A model generated the notes under the pieces. The model saw nothing but the letters and a program-made list of their open reading frames with translations. It was not told the DNA's origin and did no database searches. A stretch of DNA of 39,430 bases, taken from positions 1 through 39,430 of IMG/VR virus record IMGVR_UViG_3300044731_000415. The stretch is one strand, 5' to 3'. Positions 2,626 to 39,202 of the stretch are shown here, piece after piece; position 1 is the stretch's first letter, and each line of letters opens with the position of its first letter. This DNA is from a virus. The translations under genes and the position numbers were made by a program.

Positions 2626-3050
2626 GCAATCCTTAAAACGGCGTTGGTAGCATCATTAACCGGGAATGTAATCACCAAGTCCTGTGCGGTTTTAGTGATA
2701 TTAACCCCGAAGTTTAATACTGCAACGGAACGATTTCCATTAGTTGAGTTGTAAATAAGCGCCCCATTGGTCGTTAACGTGACGTTTGTGAATGTCGCAT
2801 TTTGGAAAGACCAATAAGAAGTAGTTCCTTGAAAGCTTGGCGTGATGTTTGTGAGGACAATTCCTCCAGCGGAATAATTGGTTCCACTGACTTCACCTGC
2901 CGTCGTGTAAGCAGTCGTTGAGGCACCGAGATCCGCGTTGGCGGTGTATAGGGCCAGCTTAAAGACATCGCCCGTTCCCGTGGTGAAGTTATGAAGACCC
3001 TGCGCTACTTCAACCTTGAAGCTCGTCGTCAGGGTTTGAATGATCGCCAT
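2622..3050 (-). CDS. Putative tail/virion protein
   Basis: 142 residues beginning MAIIQTLTTSFKVEVAQGLH and followed by GDVFKLALYTANADLGASTT. I associate this opening with small structural proteins next to tail fibres in environmental podoviruses. It is beta-rich, Thr/Asn-rich, and lacks signal peptide, membrane segment or cysteines. The start overlaps the stop of the adaptor gene by one base (TAATG) and the stop overlaps the next ATG (ATGA). It is likely part of the tail-tip or fibre assembly. No more precise function is supported. Confidence 0.7.
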   Translation of the reverse strand: MAIIQTLTTSFKVEVAQGLHNFTTGTGDVFKLALYTANADLGASTTAYTTAGEVSGTNYSAGGIVLTNITPSFQGTTSYWSFQNATFTNVTLTTNGALIYNSTNGNRSVAVLNFGVNITKTAQDLVITFPVNDATNAVLRIA

Positions 3051-3715
3051 TACACCACCTTATCCCGAACTTGGCCAGTCCTGTACGCATCCTGGCGCTC
3101 CAGTCCATCACCAAGTCGTTTGGCTAGTATTAATGCCTCTTTGTACTTGCCATTGATATTGGCCATCAAGTCAGGCTCAAGCTTCAAGAATGTACTTGCT
3201 TCAACCAAGCAGCCGTATAAAAGCACCGAGTCAAAGTTATCGCTCAGCCATGTGGTCGTCGCATCCACATTACCCGCACCAATGGAAGACGGGTAGTAGA
3301 AGTAATGAAGCTCTACCGAGTAACCCGAATTGGGTGTTGGCCCAATAATGAACGTCAGCTCTTTCGGAAATGTCGGATAGTCTGGGCCAAATAGTGCGTA
3401 ACAGTACGGGAAGCCTGCATCCGTGGGCGATGGAAATGACTCACGTATGAAGTTCACATCCTTATTCAGGAGATACTTATACGATCCATCCGTATCAATC
3501 ACCGCCATGGAATAGACGGCCAAGAAGTCTGACGGGCACTGAAGATACTTATTGCCGCTGGTCAAACTCCCGGTCACGTTCTTGCGAAGCGATGGGAATT
3601 GAATGGTATTGAAGATGCGCTGTTCAGTTTGCTGAGCAAATGTCTGGAGCGTGGACGTCTCAAACGTCGTCTCAAGATAATCCTGAATAGCTGTCTTCAG
3701 CTCACCCCAGTTCAC
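3050..3715 (-). CDS. Phage adaptor protein (SU10 adaptor-like)
   Basis: 221 residues from a GTG start that overlaps the preceding stop (GTGA). This gives the N-terminus MNWGELKTAIQDYLETTFET, which matches the usual start of this family, whereas an upstream GTG at 3733 would add six residues. The middle contains the QQTEQRIFNTIQFPSLRKNV segment and a late helical part (LVEASTFLKLEPDLMANING) typical of the SU10-type adaptor proteins. These join the portal ring to the tail of short-tailed phages. The gene lies in the tail module downstream of the nozzle-like gene. No active site is expected. Confidence 0.75.
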   Translation of the reverse strand: MNWGELKTAIQDYLETTFETSTLQTFAQQTEQRIFNTIQFPSLRKNVTGSLTSGNKYLQCPSDFLAVYSMAVIDTDGSYKYLLNKDVNFIRESFPSPTDAGFPYCYALFGPDYPTFPKELTFIIGPTPNSGYSVELHYFYYPSSIGAGNVDATTTWLSDNFDSVLLYGCLVEASTFLKLEPDLMANINGKYKEALILAKRLGDGLERQDAYRTGQVRDKVV

Positions 3716-5555: not shown

Positions 5556-5797
5556 TTGCCCACCTTCCTAAACGGTGCAACCTTTTTGGCAATAGTCTTT
5601 GGCTGCGCTACAAACTGCTTACCCTTAGCCTTACCTGCACGCTTTGCCCTAGTGGTCGCAGCATACTCCTGTGGAGATAACGATTTGATTGCTGACTCTG
5701 GAAGATAACGCTCCCCCGTATCAGACGATCGTTTACCACTCTTGGTAGTCCATTTCTGGTCCCCCCAAGCTTTCAAGGATTGCTGCGGAGCCTTCAC
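5552..5797 (-). CDS. Small basic phage protein (KWTTKSGKRSSDTGERYLP type)
   Basis: 81 residues from a GTG at 5797 that overlaps the stop of the upstream gene (GTGA). It contains WGDQKWTTKSGKRSSDTGER, then a basic tail with TTRAKRAGKAKGKQF. Proteins with the same W-x-T-K-x-G-x-x-S...TGERYLP core are common next to the tail genes of environmental phages, usually annotated as unknown. The high pI suggests nucleic-acid or capsid-interior contact (inference). No catalytic residues are apparent. Confidence 0.65.
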   Translation of the reverse strand: MKAPQQSLKAWGDQKWTTKSGKRSSDTGERYLPESAIKSLSPQEYAATTRAKRAGKAKGKQFVAQPKTIAKKVAPFRKVGK

Positions 5798-6075
5798 TTG
5801 TACTTGCCTCCAGCAGCTTTATATCGCTTAGCGAGTAGCTGTGCTTTGCGGGCGCTCCACTGGCCTGCACCAGTCCCCTGCACAGCGGCAGCTTTGATTG
5901 AATTAAACAAACGCTTCCTCATGCCAGGCTTGGTGTAGTTACCAGCCTCATTAACCTTTGATACTTTCCCGCCTTCTGCGTACTGAATGAAATCAGTATC
6001 GTCACGTCGGGATCGTAATTTTGGGCGCGGCATTTTGGAGGGATTGATAATCCCCATACCCCGTGACTTTTGCAT
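5794..6075 (-). CDS. Small basic phage protein (GQWSARKAQLLAKRYKAAGG type)
   Basis: 93 residues. GGAGG lies six bases before the ATG at 6075, supporting this start even though it overlaps the end of the 1272-residue gene by 74 bases in another frame. The conserved part is KPGMRKRLFNSIKAAAVQG followed by GAGQWSARKAQLLAKRYKA, a motif I recognise from many marine and freshwater phages. It often pairs with the gene just downstream, as here. Its function is unknown. The pairing with 5552-5797 suggests they act together. Confidence 0.7.
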   Translation of the reverse strand: MQKSRGMGIINPSKMPRPKLRSRRDDTDFIQYAEGGKVSKVNEAGNYTKPGMRKRLFNSIKAAAVQGTGAGQWSARKAQLLAKRYKAAGGKYK

Positions 6076-12750: not shown

Positions 12751-13671
12751 TCAGTTTGTGGGGTGGGTGTCAATGAGCTTTGCGCGTATTAACGCTAAAT
12801 CATTGTCGGTTGGCTTTGAGTCTACGCCACCATACTTAAATGTGTAGCCCACTAACCGCCCTTTTGATAAAGGCTCTCCAGACACCAAAGCTCGGCGCAA
12901 CGTGGGCATGGTCATGTCATAGTACTTTAAGACCACAGAAAGGCTTGGAAACAAAATACCGTCGGGCATTACAAATACTGTTTTGCTCATCTTCTGTTTT
13001 GCCTCATCAGTGTGTTTCCGACCAAGCCAATGTTTATGGCTTCTACCAGCTTCAATATTTGCCTTGATCTTTAGCAACCCTTGCTCTGAAACTTTGCGAC
13101 CCTCTGCTTTTGGCTTGCCGCGCTGTGCGTCACCAATTTTTTGTTTCGTTTCCTCAGAAAGTGTTTTGCCGTAACGATAATGATTTTTCCCTACGGTCGG
13201 GGTTCTGTTCTGTCTAATCTTGAGTTTTGTTTCTTCGCTGTGTGTTTTGCCAACTCTTGGGTGATTAAAGTAGTCGGCAGCATAAAACTCTTTCAGAGTT
13301 GCAGATATTTTTTCTTTTTGTTGCTCTGCCATTACACGGCCAAAGTTAGGCGTTGCTTCTGGCGGCGCGTTTCTCCACGGTGCGTCTGATGAATATCCAG
13401 AGTTATAGCAAGAAGGTTTTCCTACATGCTGAACAAGATAAATATCCTCTATTTGTTGAAGCGACATCGTTTCCGGGACTGTCTCTACAACAACAAATTC
13501 AAATTTATCTTCGCCGTATTTATTCCATGCGGCCTGCAAATGCTTGCAGTGGTGTCTGTTACCACGAAGTAATTTACGGTGCTGCCTAAAGCGCACCTTC
13601 TTGTTTGTTGTGCTGCCTACATAAAACTTGTTGTTGACTACGTTGATAATTTTGTAAATGACCTGTTCCAT
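12751..13671 (-). CDS. GIY-YIG homing endonuclease with NUMOD3 repeats
   Basis: 306 residues from ATG 13671, which has GGAGGG four bases upstream. The GIY-YIG nuclease domain is at the N-terminus (VIYKIINVVNNKFYVGSTTN, with YKI and YVG in place of GIY/YIG, then R at RFRQH and the catalytic E in EDIY). Three DNA-binding NUMOD3-type motifs follow (GKTHSEETKLKIRQNR, GKTLSEETKQKIGDAQRGK, GRKHTDEAKQKM), then a helix-turn-helix-like C-terminus near SLSVVLKYYDMTMPTLRRAL. It sits downstream of the capsid-gene terminator as a free-standing insertion. It is probably mobile and not needed for the virion. Confidence 0.9.
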   Translation of the reverse strand: MEQVIYKIINVVNNKFYVGSTTNKKVRFRQHRKLLRGNRHHCKHLQAAWNKYGEDKFEFVVVETVPETMSLQQIEDIYLVQHVGKPSCYNSGYSSDAPWRNAPPEATPNFGRVMAEQQKEKISATLKEFYAADYFNHPRVGKTHSEETKLKIRQNRTPTVGKNHYRYGKTLSEETKQKIGDAQRGKPKAEGRKVSEQGLLKIKANIEAGRSHKHWLGRKHTDEAKQKMSKTVFVMPDGILFPSLSVVLKYYDMTMPTLRRALVSGEPLSKGRLVGYTFKYGGVDSKPTDNDLALIRAKLIDTHPTN

Positions 13672-13732
13672 ATTCCCTCCGTTACAAAGCCATAACCGTA
13701 ATGTACCGCAAGGAACCAACAATGTCAACAGA

Positions 13733-30765: not shown

Positions 30766-30799
30766 ATCTCTCTCTTAGTTAATGACGCTCGGTGACTTT

Positions 30800-31862
30800 G
30801 GTGCTCACGATTTTTTTGACTCACTTTATTGTTTTGGTTCTCTCTAAAACTCTGGTTCGTTCATCCACTTTGGTTCTCTCCGAATGACTGACTCACTTCT
30901 CTATCCTGGTTCTCTTACCTGCTATGGTTCGTTCTAGCTCCCTGGATCTCTCGGCAGTTGCGACTCACTCTCTTACGGTGGATCTCTCACAAATAGTGGT
31001 TCGTTCGTGTACTTTGGCTCTCTCAGACTGGCTGACTCACTCTCATACCAAGGTTCTCTCGCAATCTCTGGTTCGTTCTGGACGATTGGTTCTCTCTCTT
31101 TTTCTGACTCGCTCGGCCGAATTGGTGCTCTTGGCCAACTTGGCTCACTCTCGATTTATGGTTCTCTTCCATTGCTTGGTTCGTTTACAACTTGTGGTTC
31201 TCTCCGTTAACTTGACTCACTCTGGGCGGATGGTGCTCTGGGCTCGAGTGGTTCACTTGACCGATTAGGTTCTCTCTTCGCTCTAGGTTCGTTCGGCTGA
31301 CTCGGTTCTATTTGCGTCGATGACTCACTTCCCGGTAATGGTTCTCTTGCTTGTTTAGGTTCGTTCCTGGTGGCAGGCTCTCTTACCCGACATGACTCAC
31401 TCTATCAACGGTAAAACTATCAGTGGTCTTGGTTCGTTCTGGTGCATTGGTTCTCTCTCGCATGTTGACTCGTTCGCATGAATTGGTTCTGTCGGTTACC
31501 TTGACTCGCTTCCTCAGCATGGTGCTCTTTATAACCCTGGCTCGTTCTGCGTGTATGGTTCTCTCGCTTTTAGTGACTCGTTCTGCCACATTGGTTCTCT
31601 CTGGACGGATGACTCGTTCGATCTCCTTGGTGCTCTCGATGCCAGTGACTCGTTCTAGTGATATGGACCTCTCCAGATCATTGACTCGTTCTCATGGTCT
31701 GGTTCTCTCTTGAAATTTGACTCGTTCACTTTCAATGGTGCTCTCGACTCGAATGACTCGTTCTCATATATTGGTTCTCTCGCAACTGATGACTCGTTCT
31801 ATGGTTTTGGTTCTATCTTGTTCGATGACTCACTCAATCCATTTGGTGCTCTTGGTGAGCGT
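30800..31862. repeat. TIGR-type array: 9-nt repeats alternating with 9-nt spacers
   Basis: About 59 units of 18 nt, each a 9-nt conserved core plus 9 variable bases, in strict register from 30800 to 31393 and, after one 37-nt irregular step at 31394-31430, from 31431 to 31862. Cores alternate between two types: type 1 GGTTCTCTC (variants GGTGCTCTY, GGATCTCTC, GGCTCTCTC) and type 2 GACTCACTC, GGTTCGTTC or GACTCGTTC, giving a 36-nt period with two spacers. The 9-nt spacers differ throughout. This matches TIGR arrays, which yield 36-nt guides with two 9-nt spacers. It lies directly downstream of the Tas-like gene on the minus strand. Frames translated from it (VLSxxLTRS- or ERTxxxERV-like) are artefacts of the repeat. 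Confidence 0.9.
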
Positions 31863-31864
31863 GG

Positions 31865-32659
31865 TTAAACAGGTGATGGTATGAAATGAGCATGGCCCAT
31901 GTGTGCAATCGGATAGGGCAGCGGCGGCTTCGTACCAAAGTGCGTCTCATACCAAGCTCCATGGAGGTGGCTCAGGAATAGCTTAACCGCATACCTTCTT
32001 GCCCTTGCATCGATCTGGCCTGGTGGAAGTACGCCATTGGATAGGTGCTTGTAAGCTTCCGTGGTCTTGCCTACCTTCTCCTTCAGTTGCTCAGCCAGTT
32101 CCTTGTTATCACCACGCTCATTGCGGGCGATCTCAAAGTTCTTGCGCTCCCTGTAAATGTGACCGTAGTAGCAATCATCACGGCCAGAGAACTTCATGAA
32201 GGATTGGCCAGCCTTCCAGCAAAGCGTCTTCAGTCCTGCATTCCATGGGCGCTTCTGTCCCTTCTCCCATTTGCTTGTGGGATCTAATCCAGCATAGCGC
32301 CAGATATGTCCAACGGTAGGAGCCTTCTCAATATCAATGTGCGCTAACAGCCCCGCGGAAATGACAGGGCCAATGCCTACGATCTGCCGCATCCATGCGC
32401 CCATGACATGCGACTCAGTGTAGGAATCAAGCGCCTTTTTGATCTGCTCTTCCAAGCCCTTGGATTGGGATGCTAGCCAGCCGATCACTGCATTGGGCTC
32501 CATGGATTCATCCAGCGCCCGGACTTGGTTGGTGGAACGCTTACGGTCTTCTTGGGCGATGTAGTAGTAATCGACCAGGAATCTTGCCTCATCATCAGAC
32601 AGCTTGGCGGCTGCGACTTTAAGGTCCTTGGTCAGCTTCATGATTGGTTCTAAGTTCAT
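31865..32659 (-). CDS. tas: Tas-like protein (Nop/IS110 C-terminal-type domain, no nuclease)
   Basis: 264 residues. N-terminal helices (DDEARFLVDYYYIAQEDRKR; ASQSKGLEEQIKKALDSYTE) lead to a helix-hairpin-helix core MRQIVGIGPVISAGLLAHID (90-109), IWRYAGLDPTSKWEKGQKRP (119-138) and a helical C-terminus with Arg/Tyr-rich YYGHIYRERKNFEIARNERG. This is the fold shared by the IS110/IS116 transposase C-terminal domain and the Nop-like domain of Tas proteins. No DEDD/RuvC or HNH residues are present. Its stop is two bases from the array, and its ATG overlaps the wHTH gene (ATGA). It is most likely a nuclease-less Tas (TasA-like) that binds array-derived guides. Confidence 0.85.
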   Translation of the reverse strand: MNLEPIMKLTKDLKVAAAKLSDDEARFLVDYYYIAQEDRKRSTNQVRALDESMEPNAVIGWLASQSKGLEEQIKKALDSYTESHVMGAWMRQIVGIGPVISAGLLAHIDIEKAPTVGHIWRYAGLDPTSKWEKGQKRPWNAGLKTLCWKAGQSFMKFSGRDDCYYGHIYRERKNFEIARNERGDNKELAEQLKEKVGKTTEAYKHLSNGVLPPGQIDARARRYAVKLFLSHLHGAWYETHFGTKPPLPYPIAHMGHAHFIPSPV

Positions 32660-32895: not shown

Positions 32896-33068
32896 TACTG
32901 CCCCCTTGCCAAATACCACGCCCATCGGCGCTTCTTGGCGATCATTTCTAAGTAACGCTTGATGTAGGTTTTGATTTCAACGCCTAACGACTTGGCGTAA
33001 AGCACGTCCGCCTGCGAGACGATGATCTTGCCTACCCTGTCTTCACCTCTCACTTTGCGAACTTTCAT
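32895..33068 (-). CDS. Small basic helical protein, unknown function
   Basis: 57 residues from ATG 33068 (AAGGGGG just upstream), not from the longer start at 33155 that would overlap the previous gene. Sequence: MKVRKVRGEDRVGKIIVSQA, then DVLYAKSLGVEIKTYIKRYL and EMIAKKRRWAWYLARGQ. Proteins with a SLGVxxxxYIKxxLxxIAKKRRWxW-like pattern occur in phages near replication genes, without known role. The start overlaps the preceding stop (ATGA). The Arg/Lys/Trp end may contact nucleic acid. Confidence 0.7.
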   Translation of the reverse strand: MKVRKVRGEDRVGKIIVSQADVLYAKSLGVEIKTYIKRYLEMIAKKRRWAWYLARGQ

Positions 33069-33319
33069 GCTTGCCCCCTTGCTCGTATGGCGGTGGTGCA
33101 CTGTCTTGCACCGCTTGCCATTCCTTGATCTTCTGGATATGCAAACTTGTCCCAAAGTTCTTCGGCTCGTGATTCAACTTCTTCACACGCCTTCACACAC
33201 GCCTCACGCTCGGCAGCAGCAACAAGGGCGGCGAAGCGTTCAAAAGCATCGGTATAGTTCCATAGGTCAGGATCAAGCCCTGCCTCCCGCGCCATGCGGA
33301 TTATTTCTTCTCGGTTCAT
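33065..33319 (-). CDS. Small paralogous protein (IIRMAREAG...REACxxxC...AIRARG family)
   Basis: 84 residues: MNREEIIRMAREAGLDPDLW, FERFAALVAAAEREACVKAC, ending CTTAIRARGQA. One of at least five related small genes in the window (33316, 33591, 38948 and 39199, plus the C-terminal half of 38487). The shared shape is an N-terminal helix, a FAALVxxxEREAC helix and a C-terminal AIRARG. Abundant in Burkholderiales phages, function unknown. ATGA overlaps on both sides. Confidence 0.75.
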   Translation of the reverse strand: MNREEIIRMAREAGLDPDLWNYTDAFERFAALVAAAEREACVKACEEVESRAEELWDKFAYPEDQGMASGARQCTTAIRARGQA

Positions 33320-33594
33320 GTGTTTCCCCTTGCGCGGATGGCGGCGGCAATCCGCTCACGTTCTTTGCGTAAGATCTCAAGCGTCTTGGTTTGCACCGGT
33401 TCGTCCGTCCCCTGCACGACTAATTCAGCACACGCTTCACGTTCAGAAACAACAAGTGCCTTAAGACCCCCTCGGATTTGTTGATGCGTTAGCGTCAACA
33501 AGTCGCGGTCGCCATATTGATTGCCGTGGCGATCTACCAATCTCATTGCCAGTGCGTAACGTTCAACCAAAGTCATGATGTCTTCGCGGTTCAT
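33316..33594 (-). CDS. Divergent member of the same small-protein family
   Basis: 92 residues from ATG 33594, which overlaps the preceding stop (ATGA). A longer start at 33675 would cross into the previous gene. Sequence: MNREDIMTLVERYALAMRLV, then LLTLTHQQIRGGLKALVVSE, REACAELVVQGTDEPVQTKT and RIAAAIRARGNT. The N-terminal NRED, the SEREACAEL helix and the AIRARG end are kept, but the middle differs from its paralogues. Unknown function. Confidence 0.7.
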   Translation of the reverse strand: MNREDIMTLVERYALAMRLVDRHGNQYGDRDLLTLTHQQIRGGLKALVVSEREACAELVVQGTDEPVQTKTLEILRKERERIAAAIRARGNT

Positions 33595-33797
33595 TTCTCC
33601 CCCCTTGCTCGGATGGCGGCGGCGATCAGCTCCCCGTCTATTGACGGTCCCTCTTGAAAACAAATGGAAGCACACGCCTCACGCTCGGCAGCAGCAACAA
33701 GGGCGGCAAACCGTGTTACAGAATTTAATGGCTTTTCGTCAGATCCGTAAGCCAATCCTGCCTCCCGCGCCATGCGGATTATTTGTTCGCGGTCCAT
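33591..33797 (-). CDS. Small paralogous protein, near-copy of the gene at 38948
   Basis: 68 residues: MDREQIIRMAREAGLAYGSD, EKPLNSVTRFAALVAAAERE, ACASICFQEGPSIDGELIAA. The first 40 codons are almost identical to those of the plus-strand gene at 38948 (GLAYGSDEKPLNSVTRFAAL in both), indicating a recent duplication or exchange between opposite-strand gene trains. The start overlaps the stop of the 40-residue gene (TGATG). Confidence 0.75.
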   Translation of the reverse strand: MDREQIIRMAREAGLAYGSDEKPLNSVTRFAALVAAAEREACASICFQEGPSIDGELIAAAIRARGEK

Positions 33798-36491: not shown

Positions 36492-36716
36492 ATGCTGGCA
36501 TCAGAACTTATTCAGAAGCAGATCGACGCGCTCAAGGAAGTGATAGCCAAGCTAGAGCGCCTCAAGGAAGACGTGGAGCCCATGAAGCTTGATGAGGCAG
36601 AAGAGCTATGGGATTCGATTGACATGGATACCTTGAAGAATGCTCACAACTTTGGTGACTTCATAGAGATAGTGAGGAAGGTATCTGCTTACTACAACAT
36701 AGGAGCCAGGCGATGA
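36492..36716 (+). CDS. Small coiled-coil protein
   Basis: 74 residues from ATG 36492: MLASELIQKQIDALKEVIAK, then LERLKEDVEPMKLDEAEELW and DMDTLKNAHNFGDFIEIVRK. A heptad pattern runs through residues 5-35. A longer start at 36429 would cross the membrane-protein gene. The stop overlaps the next ATG (ATGA). No family recognised. Confidence 0.65.
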   Translation: MLASELIQKQIDALKEVIAKLERLKEDVEPMKLDEAEELWDSIDMDTLKNAHNFGDFIEIVRKVSAYYNIGARR

Positions 36717-37030
36717 GAAAGCACACACCGGGACCATGGAAGTTAGAGCCATACGATTCTTGCTTGGCAGGTGAAGACTTTCAATGGGGCGGCATATGGG
36801 CTGGGCCGGTAATGCTTGATGGCATTAATTACGGGCAGCCAGCATACGCAACTATCAAACCTGAAACGTTAGAACGAATGGAAGCTGATGCCCGCCTGAT
36901 CGCCGCAGCGCCTGATTTGTTAGATGCGCTTTTGATGGTGCTGGACGATCCAAATGCCCTGGATGGTAGACCACGAACTTATGAGTATGTGCACGCCGCC
37001 ATCGCTAAAGCAACAGGAGAGAAAGCATGA
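36713..37030 (+). CDS. THTPGPW-family small phage protein
   Basis: 105 residues: MRKHTPGPWKLEPYDSCLAG, then ERMEADARLIAAAPDLLDAL and EYVHAAIAKATGEKA. The HTPGPWK start and ARLIAAAPDLLDAL helix mark a very common phage family of unknown function, and the length is typical. The 3' end carries the 36-bp direct repeat that recurs at 37822-37857 and includes the ribosome-binding site of the next gene. Confidence 0.8.
   Translation: MRKHTPGPWKLEPYDSCLAGEDFQWGGIWAGPVMLDGINYGQPAYATIKPETLERMEADARLIAAAPDLLDALLMVLDDPNALDGRPRTYEYVHAAIAKATGEKA
36995..37030 (+). repeat. 36-bp exact direct repeat, copy 1 (copy 2 at 37822-37857)
   Basis: The 36 bases from GCCGCCATCGC to GAAAGCATGA are identical at both places. 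They cover the last ten codons of one gene, the AGGAG ribosome-binding site and the next start codon. This makes a ready crossover point between adjacent gene units. Confidence 0.9.
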
Positions 37031-37374
37031 GCAGACAAGCTATGCAAATGGCGCTGGAGGCGCTGGAGTTATATCAAAGCAAGAGCAGCGTTCAAATGTT
37101 TGACGATGCCGTTAAAGCCCTGCGCCAAGCGCAGCAGACAGAGCAAGAGCCGGTGGCGTGGATGTTTGTCAATGAAGACGGTGAATGTGAGCAGATTGAG
37201 TATGGCCCTGTCTTTGATGACCCTGGGGTAACACCGCTTTACACCGCACCACCAAAGCGTGAATGGGTTGGGCTGCATGGAAGTGAAGTACCAGAACCCT
37301 ACAAATATGACGTTATGTTTAATGAAGGCTGGTGGTGGGCAGAGGAGAAATTGAAGGAGAAGAACCATGGCTGA
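37027..37374 (+). CDS. EPVAW/KREWVGL modular protein
   Basis: 115 residues: a helical N-terminus (MSRQAMQMALEALELYQSKS, then DAVKALRQAQQTEQEPVAWM), a central beta part ending TPLYTAPPKREWVGLHGSEV and a C-terminal helix EEKLKEKNHG. The same order is seen in 38060-38494. The family is widespread in proteobacterial phages and unassigned. The ATG follows AGGAGAGAAAGC and overlaps the previous stop (ATGA). Confidence 0.75.
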   Translation: MSRQAMQMALEALELYQSKSSVQMFDDAVKALRQAQQTEQEPVAWMFVNEDGECEQIEYGPVFDDPGVTPLYTAPPKREWVGLHGSEVPEPYKYDVMFNEGWWWAEEKLKEKNHG

Positions 37375-37621
37375 AAACAAAACAGCAAAGACACCAACAG
37401 ATAGCGGGGTAGGTTTTATTGACGGCGTGTGGCATGGGCCTACGGCGTGGCAGTGCCAATGCGGCAAACCCTATACGGTTACTTGTATTTCAAGCAAACC
37501 AGCTAAGCGTGAATGGGTTGGGATGACGGCTTATGAAATACAAGAGATCCATTCAGGAAATCAGCACTGGGGTGATTTTGCTTGCGCCATCGAAGCCAAG
37601 CTAAAGGAGAAGAACACATGA
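37367..37621 (+). CDS. KREWVGM small protein with cysteine pair
   Basis: 84 residues: MAENKTAKTPTDSGVGFIDG, then VWHGPTAWQCQCGKPYTVTC and SSKPAKREWVGMTAYEIQEI. The QCQCGKP...TC cysteines could form a small metal site. Only the C-terminal KREWVG module of the family is present. It ends IEAKLKEKNT and overlaps both neighbours. Function unknown. Confidence 0.7.
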   Translation: MAENKTAKTPTDSGVGFIDGVWHGPTAWQCQCGKPYTVTCISSKPAKREWVGMTAYEIQEIHSGNQHWGDFACAIEAKLKEKNT

Positions 37622-37857
37622 ACCCACAACCCAAAGCCTTAGTGCTGGCTGATGCGCTAGAAGAACTTGACGTGCAATTCAGCCACACGGGTCTATGCGG
37701 AGAAGCCGCCGACGAACTGCGCCGATTGCATGAGGTGAATCAGGATCTGCTGGCTTCAGTCGTTGAGCTCTTGAACAGCATTCAACCGGACCGAGACTGG
37801 CACAAGGCAAAGCGTGCCCGAGCCGCCATCGCTAAAGCAACAGGAGAGAAAGCATGA
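37618..37857 (+). CDS. Small helical phage protein
   Basis: 79 residues from ATG 37618: MNPQPKALVLADALEELDVQ, then FSHTGLCGEAADELRRLHEV and VELLNSIQPDRDWHKAKRAR. The ALVLADALE...AADELRRLHEVNQ pattern is common in phage small proteins. The C-terminal AAIAKATGEKA is identical to the end of 36713-37030, encoded by the 36-bp repeat. ATGA overlaps on both sides. Confidence 0.75.
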   Translation: MNPQPKALVLADALEELDVQFSHTGLCGEAADELRRLHEVNQDLLASVVELLNSIQPDRDWHKAKRARAAIAKATGEKA

Positions 37858-38063
37858 ACATAGACACAGGCAGGCCAGCGTTTCCGACAACGCAATACAT
37901 AAACGGCATCAGCCCAAGTGGGCACGATGTCGGCATGACCCTGCGCGATTACTTTGCAGCCAAGGCGATGCAAGCACTGGCGCAGAAATACAGCCATGAA
38001 GGGGATATTTCACGCAACGCATACAAAATTGCAGACGCCATGCTGAAAGCGAGGGAAGCATGA
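37854..38063 (+). CDS. GMTLRDYFAAKAMQA family small phage protein
   Basis: 69 residues: MNIDTGRPAFPTTQYINGIS, then PSGHDVGMTLRDYFAAKAMQ and ISRNAYKIADAMLKAREA. The GRPAFP start, GMTLRDYFAAKAMQ helix and AYxIADAMLKAREA end identify a widespread phage family of unknown role. Complete length. ATGA overlaps at each end. Confidence 0.85.
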   Translation: MNIDTGRPAFPTTQYINGISPSGHDVGMTLRDYFAAKAMQALAQKYSHEGDISRNAYKIADAMLKAREA

Positions 38064-38494
38064 GCAGAGAAGCTATTGAAGAAGCGATAGAGGTGCTGGA
38101 GGATGCAAGCGCAGAGATGCTGATGGAAACAGGCGATAAAAATTACTACATCGAAGCCATTGCCGTTTTACGCCAAGCACTTGTCGATGCCGACGACACA
38201 TCACAAGAACGTGTTGATGAAATCGTAAAAGATGAACATGAGCCGGTGGCGTGGGCCAATTCATTCGACCTGCAAAACTTTGACATGAAAGTGCGGACAG
38301 GTCCTGACCTGCACCACACAGTGCCCCTCTACACCGCACCAACAAAACGTGAATGGGTTGGGCTGACGGATAAAGAGATACAAGATTTAGGTTATCTGTC
38401 CGAAAAGTTTGATGCAAGTAATTCAGAGTGGTTTGATCGATGGGGATTTGCCCGAGCCATTGAACAATCCTTGAGGGAAAAGAACCATGGATAA
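38060..38494 (+). CDS. EPVAW/KREWVGL modular protein
   Basis: 144 residues: an acidic helical N-terminus (REAIEEAIEVLEDASAEMLM, then YYIEAIAVLRQALVDADDTS), EPVAWANSFDLQNFDMKVRT, VPLYTAPTKREWVGLTDKEI and a C-terminal helix. The first 120 bases are nearly the same as those of the next gene, showing tandem duplication. Function unknown. The stop lies seven bases into the next gene. Confidence 0.75.
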   Translation: MSREAIEEAIEVLEDASAEMLMETGDKNYYIEAIAVLRQALVDADDTSQERVDEIVKDEHEPVAWANSFDLQNFDMKVRTGPDLHHTVPLYTAPTKREWVGLTDKEIQDLGYLSEKFDASNSEWFDRWGFARAIEQSLREKNHG

Positions 38495-38966
38495 AGAAGC
38501 TATTGAAGAAGCGATAGAGGTGCTGGAGGATGCAGGCGCAGAGATGTTAGGGGAAACAGGCGATGAAAATTACTACGGTGAAGCCATTGCCGCACTGCGA
38601 CAAGCATTGGAGACAGAGCAAGAGCCGGTGGCTCACGTTGACCACCGCATTCACGGCTGGCCGGATTGCCTCGTGATAAAAGCCGACCCGCCGGATAGAG
38701 AAGACATCATCCGCATGGCTAGAGAAGCAGGGCTTGCTGATTCCAACGGGGTTGTTCATGCTTTTTATCAGCTTGAATACTTTGCATATCTTGTTGCCGA
38801 GCATGAGCGCGAAGCTATATGGAACTTGCTGTTTGAGTACGCAGGTAGAGATGATTTATCTGATTCAGATCAATCGCTGCTTAAACATTTATTAGATCTC
38901 ATCGCAGCAAGGTGGCAAGAATGGAGTAACAAAGAAGGGGAAGAATCATGGATAGAGAAGAAATAA
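38487..38966 (+). CDS. Fusion of an EPVAW-type N-terminus with an IIRMAREAG-type C-terminus
   Basis: 159 residues. Residues 1-60 (EAIEEAIEVLEDAGAEMLGE through QALETEQEPVAHVDHRIHGW) copy the start of 38060-38494. From residue 70 the sequence switches to REDIIRMAREAGLADSNGVV and FAYLVAEHEREAIWNLLFEY, the core of the other small family. The KREWVG part is missing. This is a clear domain shuffle. Function unknown. Confidence 0.75.
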   Translation: MDKEAIEEAIEVLEDAGAEMLGETGDENYYGEAIAALRQALETEQEPVAHVDHRIHGWPDCLVIKADPPDREDIIRMAREAGLADSNGVVHAFYQLEYFAYLVAEHEREAIWNLLFEYAGRDDLSDSDQSLLKHLLDLIAARWQEWSNKEGEESWIEKK

Positions 38967-39202
38967 TCCGCATGGCGCGGGGGGCTGGATTGGCTTACGG
39001 ATCTGACGAAAAGCCGTTAAATTCTGTAACACGCTTCGCTGCCCTTGTTGCCGAGCATGAAAGAGAACAGTGTGCAAGGTTGTGCGACCAGATGTTTCAT
39101 GACTGGTGCAATCAAGAATTTGAAGACGAGGACGAGGCTTACAAAAACAAACCGGATGCCGAGGATTGCAAGAAAGCCATCCGCGCAAGGGGAAACGCAT
39201 GA
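38948..39202 (+). CDS. Small paralogous protein (IIRMAR...ERExCA...AIRARG family)
   Basis: 84 residues: MDREEIIRMARGAGLAYGSD, EKPLNSVTRFAALVAEHERE, QCARLCDQMFHDWCNQEFED, ending KKAIRARGNA. The first 40 codons match the minus-strand gene at 33591-33797 almost base for base. It overlaps the previous gene by 19 bases and the next by ATGA. Function unknown. Confidence 0.75.
   Translation: MDREEIIRMARGAGLAYGSDEKPLNSVTRFAALVAEHEREQCARLCDQMFHDWCNQEFEDEDEAYKNKPDAEDCKKAIRARGNA

Follow-up and report, generated by a model that had tools for sequence, protein, structure and literature searches.

A large dual-repeat array and a nuclease-free Tas protein in a phage genome, a probable TIGR-TasA system

Among the described TIGR-Tas systems, the closest to the locus presented here is TIGR-TasA with TasParB (Faure et al., 2025, Science; PMC12045711), in which a solo-Nop Tas protein, an array of 10-nt dual repeats and a ParB-like gene form an operon, with the array in some loci lying between tasA and parB. 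The locus in question resides in a 39,430-base stretch of virus record IMGVR_UViG_3300044731_000415 (hereafter the window, meaning the whole stretch analysed), which belongs to a tailed phage, as judged by terminase and portal genes. It resembles TIGR-TasA/TasParB in all of these respects, but it has about 30 units, lacks a terminator downstream of the array, alternates complementary edge-repeat variants within one array, and has a helix-turn-helix (HTH) gene upstream of tasA. Another relative is SpTIGR-TasH of Salicola phage CGphi29, whose array has been experimentally shown to produce tigRNAs (PMC12045711). Its repeats are near-identical to those of the window (edge AAGCGAGCCA and loop AAGACAACCA, versus GAGCGAGCCA-type and GAGAGAACCA), with the same 36-nt period and the same strand relative to tas; however, in that system an HNH nuclease is part of TasH and a terminator follows the array, while the window TasA lacks a nuclease. 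TaTIGR-TasR (PDB 9mty) presents the best sequence and fold match, along with box C CCA ends and a covarying extra edge-repeat pair, but its RuvC domain is absent from the window protein, and its spacers are of 9 nt, compared to 8 nt in the window. The IS110/IS621 bridge-RNA transposases share a Nop-like RNA-binding domain with the window protein (E 7e-4), which, unlike them, has no catalytic domain and is accompanied by a guide array in place of a bridge RNA. CRISPR systems of types IV and V-M, cited as cleavage-free analogues (PMC12045711), are alike in the proposed function of array-guided DNA binding without cleavage, but the window protein is unrelated to theirs, the spacers are split 8 + 8, and no adaptation genes were seen in the window, which was not searched for Cas families. 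In 2025, what Tas proteins without a nuclease do, and which natural targets TIGR guides have, were described as open questions.

We consider the window locus to be, very probably, a phage-encoded TIGR-TasA system with a guide mechanism, in agreement with the initial annotation. It is a new TIGR-TasA/TasParB member with a large array, of a system type already known. In its clade, tigRNA end pairing can be tested by covariation within a single large array, the spacers show evidence of selection, and one lysogen has a guide with a precise, testable target in another mobile element.

The Tas protein and its array

The TasA protein matches TasR (9mty) at 2.1e-12 and TasH (21kl) at 1.9e-10 in a phmmer search, and a 25-sequence profile of the protein, when compared to the PDB, matches TasR (E 4.7e-20) and TasH (1.3e-11) far above IS621 (7.2e-4). 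The AlphaFold2 model (pLDDT 85.4, pTM 0.83) gives the same picture, with nine Foldseek matches in the PDB at E < 0.001, every one of them TasR or TasH, and IS621 next. The TasR-aligned part is preceded by only about 35 residues, so that neither RuvC nor HNH can fit, which assigns the protein to the TasA subtype; likewise, the N-terminal DEDD/RuvC-like catalytic domain of IS110 transposases is absent from the protein, as judged by Pfam, the profile and the model. The initial annotation, made from the letters of the sequence, had proposed a nuclease-less, TasA-like protein with a Nop/IS110-C-terminal-like core, and had called for a profile and structure comparison with Tas, Nop58 and IS110 families; its proposal agrees with these results, and the structural match whose absence it had named as refuting is present. 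Pfam recognizes only Transposase_20 (1.8e-4), and PHROG 4285 matches at 2.4e-50, their transposase labels being due to the shared IS110 C-terminal domain. PHROG 4285, labelled 'transposase, integration and excision', may itself comprise Tas proteins instead of transposases.

The array, in a chain parse, consists of 31 edge repeats in alternation with 30 loop repeats (61 in all, with the truncated one at each end included), spaced by 18 nt everywhere except for one 19-nt step, a 1-nt slip at 31421-31403, that adjoins a degenerate loop repeat, GATAGTTTTA. Each 36-nt unit contains two 10-nt repeats and two 8-nt spacers, for 30 predicted tigRNA units as compared to the typical 5-15. The edge repeats have the form GA[AC/GT/GC]GA[AC/GT/GC]CA, the loop repeats are mostly GAGAGAACCA, and on the tas-sense strand the repeats end in [C/T]CA, of the box C CCA/UCA type. 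CRISPR-type repeats of 25-36 nt were not seen in the array, whose repeats are of 10 nt, within the 8-12 nt of dual-repeat TIGR-Tas arrays, which likewise have truncated edge repeats at both ends. Open reading frames (ORFs) on the plus strand pass through parts of the array, none across the whole of it, and these are explained by the 36-nt period. The initial annotation had described about 59 strictly spaced 18-nt units, each of 9 conserved and 9 variable positions, with the end of the array two bases from the stop of a 264-residue protein. Of this, the 18-nt spacing, the two alternating types, the 36-nt period, the ORF and its adjacency to the array all hold, with 61 repeats and one 19-nt step in the parse, and 10-nt repeats with 8-nt spacers parse better, even though the two parses are nearly equal because repeat position 1 is a variable purine. 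The ORF ends inside the first repeat, and that repeat, truncated to AACCA, pairs with the GT of the edge repeat after it. Also missed were the minus RNA strand and the ParB-like gene, which begins 15 bp beyond the array end.

The most telling property of the array is the pairing of its edge repeats. In TasR, successive edge repeats supply the two ends of a processed tigRNA, and these ends base-pair (PMC12045711); this rule can be tested in the window because edge variants coexist within one array. Positions 7-8 of an edge repeat are complementary to positions 3-4 of the next one in all 30 units, 29 of them by Watson-Crick pairs and the thirtieth by one G-C and one G-U. In the core array 28/28 pairs are Watson-Crick, versus a mean of 13.5/28 when edge order is shuffled, and none of the 5000 shuffles reach 28, with the end variants AC/GT, GT/AC, and GC/GC alternating in a single array. 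Complementarity inside one edge repeat occurs in 9 cases only, and the loop repeats reveal no such complementarity in the same test. Across the 33 loci parsed, 1479 end pairs are Watson-Crick, 63 are G-U, 14 are A-C and 24 are of other kinds (when each distinct unit is counted once, 49 have only G-U, 14 have A-C, and 3 are mixed). The excess of G-U over A-C shows the functional strand to be RNA in the tas sense, and such an RNA signature speaks against reading the repeats as DNA sites, for example as a ParB centromere. Given the end complementarity, along with arrays beside nearly all viral relatives, the array is not a chance repeat.

In one scan, 37 viral relatives were found (48-100% identity), the 36-nt array being present in nearly all, as were nine bacterial or metagenome-assembled loci, while a search for TasA in plasmids found none. 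The parB gene is present in 9 of the 30 relatives' records, which is a lower bound because some of these records are fragments, and arrays persist in relatives whose records have no such parB. The spacers turn over fast: 21 of the 29 units are common to the window and a record with an identical TasA, and 2 of 29 at 92% TasA identity. Related phages thus do not carry the identical, unvarying arrays that the initial annotation had named as evidence against its own proposal, and we reject a coding or structural-repeat reading of the array because of this turnover.

A number of observations concern individual relatives. In one of them (L002:7654-7798), near-duplicate units TCGACGCG/AGTCAGCC and TCGACGCA/GGTCAGCC lie on either side of another unit, and the window has a single unit resembling a recombinant of the two; units may come and go by recombination. 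The arrays of two other relatives are far larger, with 127 repeats (L027:6858-9123) and 115 repeats (L035:7420-9490), or more than 50 tigRNA units each. Microcystis phage Mvi-JY20 (PP438412.1; L157) encodes a TasA-like ORF at 2902-3627, annotated as 'hypothetical protein', followed from ~3630 to ~4030 by a dual-repeat array of 36-nt period (ATGCGAGCC / ACGAAACCC); this cultured phage seems to have a TIGR locus that has not been annotated. Halomonas sp. NO4 (L128) is a second cultured bacterium with TIGR-TasA, with the array at ~5720-5990 and edge repeats ending in GACA, not GTCA, and is a candidate for laboratory work.

Proposed mechanism, candidate target, and competing explanations

The fold class of the protein, the array anatomy, the end-pair covariation, the RNA polarity, and the spacer selection are read from sequence, and processing, the dimer, and two-strand targeting are projected from the systems of Faure et al. 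(2025; PMC12045711). In the proposed mechanism, a minus-strand transcript covering the HTH gene, tasA, the array, and the ParB-like gene would yield a precursor that would be cut inside the edge repeats into about 30 tigRNAs of 36 nt. In each of them, two base pairs would join the ends, with nucleotides 7-8 of one edge repeat pairing with nucleotides 3-4 of the following one. Each tigRNA would be held, box C/D-like, by a TasA dimer, and each of its two 8-nt spacers would pair with a different strand of one uninterrupted ~16-bp DNA site. The nuclease-free complex would bind and bend this site, blocking transcription or replication, with early control genes of competing mobile elements as the most likely targets.

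A hint as to such targets comes from Acidobacteriaceae bacterium KBS 96, a lysogenic relative with a TIGR-TasA prophage at ~129-168 kb of a 6.69-Mb scaffold (integrase at 128,958; ORFs that on visual inspection resemble terminase, portal, and tape-measure genes). Targets were sought by a rule derived from the published cut geometry, in which the top strand is spacer A followed by the reverse complement of spacer B, at a gap of 0-2. Six KBS 96 guides were searched across the whole genome, and one of them, guide 2, produced an exact match (16/16 at gap 0, 6329962-6329977), versus 0.066 exact matches expected for the six guides at gaps 0-2, and none with reversed-pattern controls. The site lies 25 nt into the ORF that encodes a PHROG-66 excisionase/regulator (xis +26 to +41), next to a divergent HTH_3 repressor-like (CI-like) gene and an integrase; the element also possesses an O-like replication gene, an HK97-type head protein, and a prohead protease. 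From these genes it is an integrated element that bears a capsid and may be a satellite. Its replication gene contains a 14/16 match (gap 0) to guide 5, and guides of other loci have no match in the element. Within these 7.9 kb, two of the six true guides match with up to two mismatches, versus 0 of 102 mispaired or wrong-geometry probes, a comparison that includes the exact match by which the element had been picked. A site just inside an early gene fits a block, as TasA without a nuclease would act as one. In open-access papers, which are not the entire literature, we saw no natural target described for a TIGR system.

We take the KBS 96 matches as a lead for the silencing of rivals, not as proof, and this silencing, coming from one lysogenic relative, is the weakest part of the proposal and a tentative one. 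It is likewise a possibility, somewhat short of an even chance, that TIGR-TasA arrays are the phage-carried, nuclease-free counterpart of CRISPR interference in mobile-element warfare, blocking the early operons of satellites and rival prophages. If so, guides would block excisionase and replication genes, arrays would turn over as rivals change, and the guide-xis match in KBS 96 would be a natural TIGR target.

The conservation of retained spacers speaks for a guide function. They differ at 3.5-12% of positions, versus 14-34% for four-fold sites of tasA and 16-47% for those of parB (five comparisons, Fisher p 1e-3 to 5e-17), supporting, but not proving, selection of the spacers as guides, since the unit-sharing threshold and local recombination could lower spacer divergence. 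That caveat is one of a number of points that weigh against the proposal, as does the post hoc choice of the KBS 96 element. Production of tigRNAs from the window array is a prediction. Target searches with the window guides cover phage-side sequence. In the phage's own genome, searched in four geometries with up to two mismatches and gaps of -2 to +6, the window guides have no expected-geometry site within one mismatch and, at two mismatches, no excess over mispaired guides. Nor do they have a target above chance in the 30 relatives' records (1.33 Mb). Guide 8 has 20 exact matches in IMG/VR, in varied contexts, which we take as chance, and other guide sets reveal no enrichment over control geometries. 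When 550 guides were compared to the same 30 records, 25 and 24 of them matched in the expected geometry with one mismatch (gaps 0 and 2, respectively), versus about 13 for controls; these matches are scattered and partly redundant, and do not make a robust signal. Two guides of the Halomonas lysogen have no exact host match, and no convincing target was found for that lysogen.

As to the alternatives, the one closest to the favoured reading is that a nuclease-free TIGR-TasA is aimed at host chromosomal genes, for takeover or against defence, rather than at rival mobile elements. The searches with the window guides, made in phage-side sequence, leave room for this, and 30 guides could serve several target classes; however, in KBS 96, the sole lysogen searched whole, the only exact match of six guides is in a mobile element, and the two Halomonas guides match no chromosomal site exactly, so that we consider it unlikely. 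A more improbable proposal is that TIGR-TasA serves the regulation or maintenance of the phage itself, by binding its own genome or, together with ParB, as an RNA-guided device for partition or replication licensing. The association of tasA with parB, both in the window and in the loci of Faure et al. (PMC12045711), and the operon-like packing with no terminator between the array and parB are in its favour, but the own-genome searches above lend no support to self-regulation, which the initial annotation had listed among the possible roles, and parB was seen in only a minority of the relatives' records, some of them fragments.

The same ParB-like gene and a replication-type neighbourhood, with helicase and primase-like genes, could also suggest that the repeats are DNA sites, parS-like centromeres or iterons for partition or replication, with TasA being incidental. 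We give this very little credence: there are two alternating repeat types with spacers that turn over, successive edges are complementary with G-U exceeding A-C on one strand, a pattern not expected of DNA sites, arrays are maintained in relatives whose records have no such parB, and the same repeats adjoin TasH in the validated TIGR phage. Finally, an IS110-like transposase remnant next to a tandem repeat that is incidental or coding would agree with the Pfam and PHROG labels and with the plus-strand ORFs in the array. The probability of this is negligible, in view of the missing N-terminal catalytic domain, the match to TasR/TasH far above IS621, the covariation and polarity of the end pairs, and ORFs that follow from the 36-nt period and are not array-wide.

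Locus layout and neighbouring genes

On the minus strand, the winged-HTH gene is followed by tasA, the array, the ParB-like gene, and a helicase gene (Table 1). The stop of the HTH gene overlaps the tasA start by 4 nt, and this gene is likely the first of the operon. The tasA gene, the array and the ParB-like gene are packed in an operon-like manner, and the likeness to the published TasA-TasParB operon is in gene order and protein family. The ParB-like protein has a ParB N-terminal-like domain, an HTH region, and predicted long C-terminal helices; its AlphaFold2 model is poor (pLDDT 61.8) and not usable. No terminator-like Rho-independent structure was found at the array or between the array and parB, the array running into the parB start region. 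As a terminator is typical of dual-repeat TIGR-Tas loci, but not universal, we do not take its absence as excluding. An Rfam search gave no match, and a tRNA search found none.

Table 1. Coordinates of the features of the TIGR-TasA locus in the window
Feature	Position	Strand	Remarks
Winged-HTH protein, 89 aa	32656..32925	(-)	PHROG transcriptional regulator 2.2e-4; weak MarR/IclR HTH matches
tasA, 264 aa	31865..32659	(-)	Nop-domain protein (IS110 C-terminal-like), without nuclease domain
TIGR array	30781..31866 (30781 approximate)	(-)	61 repeats, 30 predicted 36-nt units; chain parse
5'-truncated first edge repeat, AACCA	31862..31866	(-)	Overlaps tasA stop TAA (31867-31865)
3'-truncated last edge repeat, GAGCG followed by TCATT	30781..30790	(-)	Pairs with preceding edge: one G-C and one G-U
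ParB-like protein, 272 aa	29947..30765	(-)	PHROG ParB-like matches 4.7e-13 and 8.7e-13

Elsewhere in the window, an ORF between structural genes (12751-13728, minus strand) resembles a GIY-YIG/NUMOD homing endonuclease on visual inspection (YKIINVVNNKFYVGST), and small paralogous ORFs at 33065-33797 and 36713-39202 share the motifs EREAC..., IRARG, and PPKREWVGL, making up a repeated accessory family.
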